Below are positions 4,772-6,985 of a stretch of 34,194 nucleotides of DNA, piece after piece. Source of the DNA: a virus; the IMG/VR virus record IMGVR_UViG_3300042876_000317, positions 1 to 34,194 of that record; one strand, given 5' to 3'. A model generated the notes under the pieces. That model worked only from the letters and a program-made list of their open reading frames with translations, made no database searches and was not told the DNA's origin. Numbering within the stretch: the first letter of the stretch is position 1; every line of letters starts with the position of its first letter. A program made the translations under genes and the position numbers.

Positions 4772-4979
4772 GCAATGGCAGAGCGACCGCATGCGGCGGA
4801 AACGGGCGAGCATCAGGCGGGAGCGGCTACTCAGGCTGCTTGAGGCATACCGGGAAGTACGGCGATGGCAACGTAAAGTCGTCGATGGCATCATCGCTAC
4901 CAACGAATCGCTACGGGAAATACTGATTCGAAAGCCGCAAACGTGCCAGGTGATCGCGCCGGAGGCAAAACAGGAATAG
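4764..4979 (+). CDS. Basic helical protein, 71 aa
   Basis: The start ATG 4764 lies eight bases inside the previous gene. After the shared MSKQWQSDR opening, the protein is a run of Arg-rich helix (MRRKRASIRRERLLRLLEAY, then VRRWQRKVVDG) with an overall strong positive charge. Nucleic-acid binding is plausible. No family was recognised. It is followed after two bases by the HTH gene. Confidence 0.55.
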   Translation: MSKQWQSDRMRRKRASIRRERLLRLLEAYREVRRWQRKVVDGIIATNESLREILIRKPQTCQVIAPEAKQE

Positions 4980-4981
4980 CA

Positions 4982-5194
4982 ATGGCAGAAGTATTTGCAC
5001 TCGAAAAGCACTACACAGCGGAAGAACTCGCGGACCTGTGGCACCTGGATTCAACCACGGTGCGGCGAATCTTCCAAGATCAACCCGGGGTGCTCAAGAT
5101 CGGGAACCACCATCGCCGCGGCAAGCGCGCTTACGTGAGTCTGCGCATACCTGAATCGCTGGCGAAGCGCTTCCACGATGAACGCTCCAGGTAG
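4982..5194 (+). CDS. HTH DNA-binding protein, possible excisionase
   Basis: ATG 4982 follows AGGAAT; the in-frame start at 4943 lies in the previous gene. Residues 11-30 (YTAEELADLWHLDSTTVRRI) form a MerR/excisionase-type helix-turn-helix and the basic segment after it (HHRRGKRAYVSL) could be the wing. The gene overlaps the integrase start by 17 bases. Small HTH proteins placed directly before int often act as recombination directionality factors; here this is inferred from position and size. Confidence 0.65.
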   Translation: MAEVFALEKHYTAEELADLWHLDSTTVRRIFQDQPGVLKIGNHHRRGKRAYVSLRIPESLAKRFHDERSR

Positions 5195-6326
5195 TATGAT
5201 TTCCGACGTGGCGGAACTCTATCGTCGGCATTCGAAAACCTGTAAGCACCGGGCCAAGGGGCCGGGCTACACAAAGTGCTCCTGCCCGATCTGGGCGTAT
5301 GGCCGCATCAGTGAAGACGTGCCGCCGATCCGCGAGTCGATGAAGACGCGGAATTGGGAACGGGCACAGAAGCGGCTGAAGGATAGGACGCAAAACCCCG
5401 ATGCTGGGAGCCCCGTGGTGCGATTGGACGAAGCGGTGAGGCGATATATCCTCGATTGCACCGACAGGCGCTTGGCGGCAAGCACGCTGCGAGCATATAC
5501 GGCTCAATTGAATCACCTGATTGCTTTCGCCCCGGATGCTAGAGTCGCTGAACTCACGGCGGACTTCCTGGGGCGCTATCGGTCAACCCGGACCATTGCG
5601 GCAGGGACGAGCAGGAAAGAACTCGAAACGCTACGCGGATTCTGCGACTACTGCGTCCGTGTTGGATGGCTGGCTGCGAATCCGGCAAAGATGATCAAGC
5701 CTCCTCGGGAAGAACGAGTTCCGACCCTGCCATTCACCCGGGAAGAGATCGCCAAGATACTGGAAGCGTGCGACACGATGCCGGACCGCAACCCGAAGTC
5801 GGTAGAGCGGACACGCCGGATTGCCAAAGCCCGGGCGCTGGTCATGCTCTACACCGGGTTTCGCATTTCGGACACGGTCACACTGCGGCGCACGGCGGTA
5901 GACATGCAGACCGGACGCTGCCTGATTCGGGTCATGAAAACCCGGGAGCCGATGTACATCATGCTCAATACCGCCACACTGAACGCACTCTCAGCGCTCG
6001 AGCAACCCGGGGAGTATTTCTTCTGGAGCGGCAAGGGGTCGGTCAAGGCGGCAATCGGCGGCGCTCAGCGATCCATTGACAGGCTGATGAAGCATGCGGG
6101 TATCACGGACGGCCACCCGCACAGATTCAGGGACACGTTCAGCGTGGGGCTGCTCGAGAACGGCGAGGACTTGCGGACAGTGCAATTGCTTCTCGGGCAC
6201 TCGAGTATCAAGACCACAGAGCGCCACTACGCACCATGGGTCCGGTCTATGCAGCGCATTCTGGACGCCGCGACGTCCAAGTTGGACTTTTCCCGCCGTG
6301 TACAAAAAACGGTACAGATCGCTTAG
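5178..6326 (+). CDS. int: Tyrosine-type site-specific integrase
   Basis: The 382-residue protein carries the full catalytic set: R229 (TGFRIS), K254 (VMKTRE), H315 and R318 (PHRFRD), H341 (LLGHSS) and the nucleophile Y351 (RHYAPW). The N-terminus has Cys/His residues (C22, H24, C34, C36), a feature I associate with integrases from acidobacterial genomes. Residues about 83-170 are the core-binding SAM-like domain (VRRYILDC ... YCVRVGWL). ATG 5178 gives the longest product; ATG 5196, just past the HTH stop, is an alternative. Its 3' end runs straight into attP, the usual place for int. Confidence 0.93.
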   Translation: MNAPGSMISDVAELYRRHSKTCKHRAKGPGYTKCSCPIWAYGRISEDVPPIRESMKTRNWERAQKRLKDRTQNPDAGSPVVRLDEAVRRYILDCTDRRLAASTLRAYTAQLNHLIAFAPDARVAELTADFLGRYRSTRTIAAGTSRKELETLRGFCDYCVRVGWLAANPAKMIKPPREERVPTLPFTREEIAKILEACDTMPDRNPKSVERTRRIAKARALVMLYTGFRISDTVTLRRTAVDMQTGRCLIRVMKTREPMYIMLNTATLNALSALEQPGEYFFWSGKGSVKAAIGGAQRSIDRLMKHAGITDGHPHRFRDTFSVGLLENGEDLRTVQLLLGHSSIKTTERHYAPWVRSMQRILDAATSKLDFSRRVQKTVQIA

Positions 6327-6350: not shown

Positions 6351-6371
6351 TTGGGGTGGAGTTTGGGGTGG
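6351..6371 (+). repeat. Two copies of TTGGGGTGG at the core edge
   Basis: TTGGGGTGG occurs at 6351-6359 and 6363-6371, a 12-base period. The second copy covers the CCA end and last acceptor bases of the tRNA-derived core (in minus-strand terms). It could be an integrase core-type site or a trace of an older attachment event. Confidence 0.4.
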
Positions 6372-6387
6372 GTAGTGGGGTTCGAAC
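6364..6387 (-). other. attP core: 3' end of a tRNA (probably tRNA-His)
   Basis: Read on the minus strand from 6387 to 6364, the sequence fits a tRNA from G53 to the CCA end: T-loop TTCGAAC, T-stem half CCCAC, acceptor half TACCCAC, base 73 C, then CCA. C73 is the known hallmark of bacterial tRNA-His. The bases before it (on the minus strand) do not complete the T-stem, so no whole tRNA exists here. A tRNA 3' end directly beside int is the usual form of a phage attP. Exact crossover limits cannot be set from one sequence. Confidence 0.75.
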
Positions 6388-6439: not shown

Positions 6440-6985
6440 ATGGCAAAAACGGCAAAAGTGCAGATCGGATGTACAAAGCGTGTACAAAAACGCGAACTGC
6501 CCAAGCGCGAGCAGCAACTAGTTAGGGAGGCGATTCGGATCATAGCCAAGCATGTGGATGATAGCGAATCGGGCTATATCTACGTGGTGGAGGCCGTCGG
6601 GATAGATCGGTTCAAGATTGGGGCGTCAAAGGGTCTACATGGCAGGGTTGAGGGCATCCAAACAACCTGCCCGGTCCCGGCCAAGTTGAGACTATGGCTG
6701 CATGGTGGGTTTAAGCTGGAGGGCAAATTGCATCGGCTGTTCGACCGATTCCGCTGCAACGGCGAGTGGTTTGAAGCGTGTCCAGCGCTTCGGCAGTTCG
6801 TGGAAGATGCCCTGCCATTCCAGCGAGATTGCGAGCGGCTGAGAAGCCCTAAGCGAGCCCCGGGAGTCGATTGCGTCGAGGAGCAACTTGCCGCTGAGCG
6901 TAGGGGGAAACGGCTAGCGTTTCCTGATCTGAACTGGGTAAGCATTTCGATGAAATCAAACCCGCGCATGTGGTCCATTTCTTAG
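6440..6985 (+). CDS. GIY-YIG / T5orf172-family protein
   Basis: The 181-residue product has a central domain of the T5orf172 type, a GIY-YIG nuclease relative: GYIYVVEA (about 45-52), FKIGASKGLHGRV (58-70) and a helix with E94 and H98 (KLEGKLHRLFDRF), then GEWFEA. The first 40 residues are basic, with KVQIGCTKRVQKRE resembling the RVQKTVQIA tail of the integrase because the DNA repeats on both sides of attP are translated. A nuclease or DNA-binding regulatory role is possible; the first motif is degenerate. It stands alone with its own promoter. Confidence 0.7.
   Translation: MAKTAKVQIGCTKRVQKRELPKREQQLVREAIRIIAKHVDDSESGYIYVVEAVGIDRFKIGASKGLHGRVEGIQTTCPVPAKLRLWLHGGFKLEGKLHRLFDRFRCNGEWFEACPALRQFVEDALPFQRDCERLRSPKRAPGVDCVEEQLAAERRGKRLAFPDLNWVSISMKSNPRMWSIS

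Follow-up and report, generated by a model that had tools for sequence, protein, structure and literature searches.

The stretch of DNA analysed here, referred to as the window, comprises positions 1 to 34,194 of IMG/VR virus record IMGVR_UViG_3300042876_000317 (34,194 nucleotides). It carries a tyrosine integrase gene and, close behind it, a 24-nucleotide copy of the 3' end of a tRNA-His gene. The relevant features are listed below.

48-869, left of the integrase: O-like/primosomal replication protein (weak match)
4943-5194, plus strand: small helix-turn-helix (HTH) protein, candidate excisionase (weak phrog_10045 HTH match, E 0.00047)
5178-6326, plus strand: tyrosine integrase, 382 aa (PF00589, E 1e-25; phrog_1, E 5.8e-45)
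6297-6308, plus strand: probable arm-type site on the left (int side), CGTGTACAAAAA, a 12-nt direct repeat with 6479-6490
6364-6387, minus strand: predicted attP core, a copy of tRNA-His positions 53-76 (T-loop to CCA) that exactly matches the 3' ends of complete tRNA-His genes
6440-6985, plus strand: MUG113/T5orf172 domain protein, the first gene beyond the predicted attP (PF13455, E 5.4e-9; PF10544, E 1.3e-7; PHROG matches)
6470-6477, plus strand: probable arm-type site on the right, a repeat of TGTACAAA
6479-6490, plus strand: probable arm-type site on the right, CGTGTACAAAAA, a 12-nt direct repeat with 6297-6308

The protein encoded at 5178-6326 is a tyrosine recombinase by its PF00589 domain and its catalytic R-K-H-R-H-Y set, which a motif reading of the alignment with acidobacterial relatives places at R229, K254, H315, R318, H341 and Y351. 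The 24-mer starts 38 bp past the stop codon of this gene. The presence of the MUG113/T5orf172 gene indicates that phage DNA runs on past the core, and it is followed on the right by HNH, small and large terminase subunit, portal, capsid and tail genes. To the left of the integrase lie the small HTH protein and the replication protein, and several ORFs on this side found no family match in Pfam or PHROG.

The minus-strand letters of 6364-6387 (GTTCGAACCCCACTACCCACCCCA) follow tRNA numbering from 53 to 76 in order, confirming the reading given in a preliminary description of this DNA: G53, the T-loop TTCGAAC, C61-C65 (CCCAC), the acceptor 3' strand TACCCAC, C73 and CCA. C73, positioned opposite G-1, is characteristic of bacterial tRNA-His. 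The T-stem is left incomplete, as had also been described, with AAGA standing 5' of G53 where GTGG is required. ARAGORN called zero tRNAs in the whole window; this result and the missing 5' strand of the T-stem rule out a degenerate complete tRNA at 6364-6387. A generic T-loop-to-CCA pattern has its sole match in the window at this position, and no further copy of the 24-mer is present in the window with up to three mismatches allowed (100 shuffles likewise gave 0). GTTCGAAC reads as a perfect palindrome, a symmetry that would fit paired core sites.

A scan of the genomes of 84,980 species detected the exact 24-mer in four contigs only, belonging to two Acidobacteria MAGs, Anaerovorax sp. and an uncultured Clostridia bacterium. 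In all four, a complete tRNA-His(GTG) gene ends with these 24 nt, and chance is therefore effectively excluded, in keeping with the missing shuffle copy and the single pattern match. The same result supports the tRNA-His identity previously assigned from C73, and the two MAGs support the predicted insertion site in an acidobacterial tRNA-His gene. When up to two mismatches were allowed, about a tenth to a sixth of the genomes sampled from the second MAG's order and the first MAG's family had a match, which almost always lay within a full tRNA-His. The identity between the 24-mer and the host tRNA-His stops at G53 leftward and gains 0-2 bases past CCA. The window thus matches a host tRNA gene exactly over its 3' part and does not carry the full tRNA.

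Phage genes flank the segment on both sides and there is no complete tRNA, so the site is read as attP rather than attL or attR; these two observations also rule out an attL or attR within a chromosome. The unintegrated phage form is well supported, and the proposal of an attP beside int holds. The preliminary description had regarded the genome as both intact and unintegrated; the second part stands on the phage genes at either side, but the first is not supported in this way, as the suggested check for a circular contig found no terminal repeats at the record ends. Directly next to the site, nothing was recognised as a host gene.

Direct repeats surround the core. TGTACAAA occurs at 6299, 6470, 6481 and one other window site, where 0.41 occurrences are expected and no shuffle reached four; the statistics are nevertheless modest in a test that does not preselect the word, as a direct word of at least 12 is shared across flanks of equal size at about 1.4% of window positions. 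The TGTACAAA/CGTGTACAAAAA repeats are probable arm-type sites. The repeat DNA at 6297-6308 and 6479-6490 codes for RVQK, once at the integrase end and once near the start of the next ORF, and the putative arm sites therefore overlap both coding regions.

An IMG/VR scan with an integrase alignment yielded 86 related loci, 80 of which were kept, and the nearest integrases in this alignment-based scan reach only about 43% identity. Scans of IMG/VR with a single integrase or TerL sequence returned nothing, neither exact nor two-position degenerate searches of IMG/VR found a viral contig with the core, and a blastn comparison of the int-attP region with phages produced no match. The sample of genomes searched held no integrated copy of the window phage at tRNA-His. 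Of the search of acidobacterial genomes proposed earlier, the tRNA-His genes ending with the 24-mer were thus recovered, but no prophage of the same phage joined there; natural support comes from an island with a distant integrase (G518, below) and from viral relatives at other tRNAs.

Related integrases in acidobacteria adjoin tRNA-Ser, -Asp, -Phe and -Cys genes or tmRNA; the tmRNA gene is found beside the relatives at L023, L024, L030, L035 and L038. Fourteen T-loop-to-CCA matches were present in 51,145 flank bases of 61 of the related IMG/VR loci, where about 0.2 are expected by an estimate from pattern information. Several of them (L101, L111, L113, L131, L155 and L157) are fragments that lack a called full tRNA and are attP- or attR-like in appearance. 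The tRNA lies on the 5' side of int in most relatives; L155/L157/L160 and L127 resemble the window in having the fragment past the 3' end of int and on the other strand. The L127 fragment, CGAGTCCCGCCCGGCTCACCA, is the end of the tRNA-Lys present in L126. In two related viral loci, L091 and L095, ARAGORN called a tRNA-SeC 83-111 bp upstream of int. The G001 relative (L034/L056) has no adjoining tRNA or T-loop-to-CCA match.

A comparable element occupies tRNA-His in G518, an acidobacterium that shares its order with one of the two host MAGs. Its contig C316 (L087/L088) contains tRNA-His at 5852-5928, and the integrase ORF starts about 57 bp past this gene. A displaced repeat, TCGAATCCCACTACCCACCCCAT, lies 29.5 kb away at 35409-35431 in the same direction as the tRNA; it starts in the T-loop and runs to CCA. 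Direct repeats (GGTGGGGAATGG) are present near both ends of the element. The element thus resembles the window in its tRNA-His target, T-loop-to-CCA repeat, related integrase and direct repeats near the ends. In contrast to the window, its integrase (26% identical to that of the window, E 1e-30) reads away from the tRNA, and its scanned cargo includes type I restriction-modification and DUF3987 genes in place of structural genes of a phage. Since no phage structural gene was found among the scanned ORFs, it is considered an island and not a phage. A type I restriction-modification system is thus encoded on this 29.5-kb tRNA-His island (5852-35431).

An 11.6-kb element also resides in tRNA-His at L080 (G515 contig C273, 51-11742), with a longer displaced repeat that begins in the anticodon region. 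Its integrase has no tblastn match to the window integrase, and it was accordingly rejected as a prophage copy at the same site. The G515 and G249 tRNA-His repeats were likewise rejected as the same site, because both start in the anticodon region and end at CCA, which is another subsite. In the acidobacterial family of L080, tRNA-His seems to serve as a hot spot for integration.

Junctions constructed in silico indicate the likely outcome of integration. When the 5' part of the host tRNA was joined to the 24-mer and the int-side flank, a complete tRNA-His resulted for 4/4 genomes; therefore, integration should leave the tRNA intact. The reciprocal junction gave no tRNA-His call for any of the four genomes, and for the uncultured clostridium only the neighbouring host tRNA-Cys and tRNA-Gln were called. 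Phage insertion at tRNA-His would thus very likely leave the tRNA unbroken.

We propose that the integrase recognises and binds the core together with the TGTACAAA repeats on its flanks. The left border of identity lies at G53 in the window, T55 in G518 and C56 in L127; if these three act alike, strand exchange would take place at or 3' of the T-loop, and this crossover position is that of the T/J class of Islander (PMC4383910). The 5' part of the host tRNA would become joined to the phage 24-mer, which would place int immediately downstream of the regenerated tRNA, reading toward it. The old 24-nt end would be moved to the far prophage end as a dead fragment, and the upstream HTH protein would probably act as the excision factor.

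Taken together, we hold with high confidence that 6364-6387 is the attP core of a temperate tailed phage and that the tyrosine integrase encoded at 5178-6326 recombines it with the 3' end of a tRNA-His gene in the host, which is most likely an acidobacterium. The support for attP is sequence only, which leaves some room for a chance or vestigial tRNA-like fragment that plays no role in recombination. This can hardly be the case, however, as 24 identical bases with exact borders adjoin int, and in L127 the end of a tRNA-Lys is arranged in the same way. A 3' tRNA fragment between two stretches of phage DNA would likewise be seen at the junction of two tandem prophages in one tRNA-His gene, and the record has no end repeats to prove a free circle. 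Such a junction is nonetheless very improbable compared with the attP of a free phage: an identical 12-nt repeat stands on either side of the core, as for one attP, and just one relative of the integrase was noted across the window. Identical copies in tandem would be indistinguishable, yet its attP sequence would be the same.

If the attP reading is correct, the host could still be a clostridium, since the identical tRNA-His end occurs in two Clostridia genomes; for this reason, the placement in Acidobacteria is made with fair but not final confidence. A clostridial host is nevertheless unlikely. The nearest integrase in the phage database is that of the Tunturiibacter (Acidobacteriota) phage Tunturi_4 (31%), integrase relatives of 35-42% are found on acidobacterial chromosomes, capsid relatives of 39-40% occur in the first host MAG's family, and the G+C content of the window is about 58%. 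An acidobacterial host is therefore quite probable.

The 4943-5194 protein has no Pfam match. It has 46 matches in the integrase-relative loci examined, mostly near int, including L024, L030, L090, L092, L108, L110, L112 and L127, and these occur in two orientations. Where the att side is known, an HTH gene just downstream of int on the opposite strand goes with an att upstream of int (L024, L030, L043, L095, L111, L113 and L126), whereas an HTH gene just upstream on the same strand goes with an att downstream of int, as seen in the window and L127, the only two informative members of this type. The order would thus be att, int and opposite-strand HTH in most loci, versus HTH, int and att in the window and L127. 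This arrangement fits an excisionase gene, which makes the protein a candidate excision factor. The integrase family, which occurs in acidobacteria and environmental viruses, might even exist in two polarities relative to its att site and HTH partner, although we regard this as a tentative and somewhat doubtful idea. If it were true, int would have changed direction in the course of evolution while its neighbours stayed in place, and the HTH protein, which is uncharacterised, would represent a new excision-factor family.

The feature belongs to the tRNA 3'-end attP sites that use the T-loop/T-stem subsite, and it illustrates a well-known strategy cleanly but without being unusual. Mycobacteriophage Ms6 uses a 26-bp core at the 3' end of tRNA-Ala that includes the T-loop, the possible site of strand exchange (PMC1762012). 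Both phages have a short core identical to a tRNA 3' region with the T-loop and integrate by a tyrosine-type mechanism; the Ms6 target, however, is a mycobacterial tRNA-Ala, its core (AGGGGTTCGAATCCCCTTAGCTCCAC) begins further 5', in the T-stem, and lacks the CCA end, and its integration was tested by experiment (PMC1762012). Islander-type genomic islands use the T/J subsite of tRNA genes (PMC4383910) and share with the window a displaced 3' tRNA fragment, an element that regenerates its target and a crossover in the T-loop or at the T/acceptor junction; unlike them, the window is seen solely as the unintegrated phage form. Pseudomonas phage phiC725A is also a temperate phage that inserts at a tRNA-His locus, beside the gene and not inside it (PMC5217972).

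Conceptually, these findings confirm known biology. They provide an integrase-attP pair with a defined tRNA-His target, and to our knowledge temperate phages of the Acidobacteria phylum are little studied. An anonymous virus record thereby gains a precise, testable mechanism of lysogeny and a predicted insertion site in its host.
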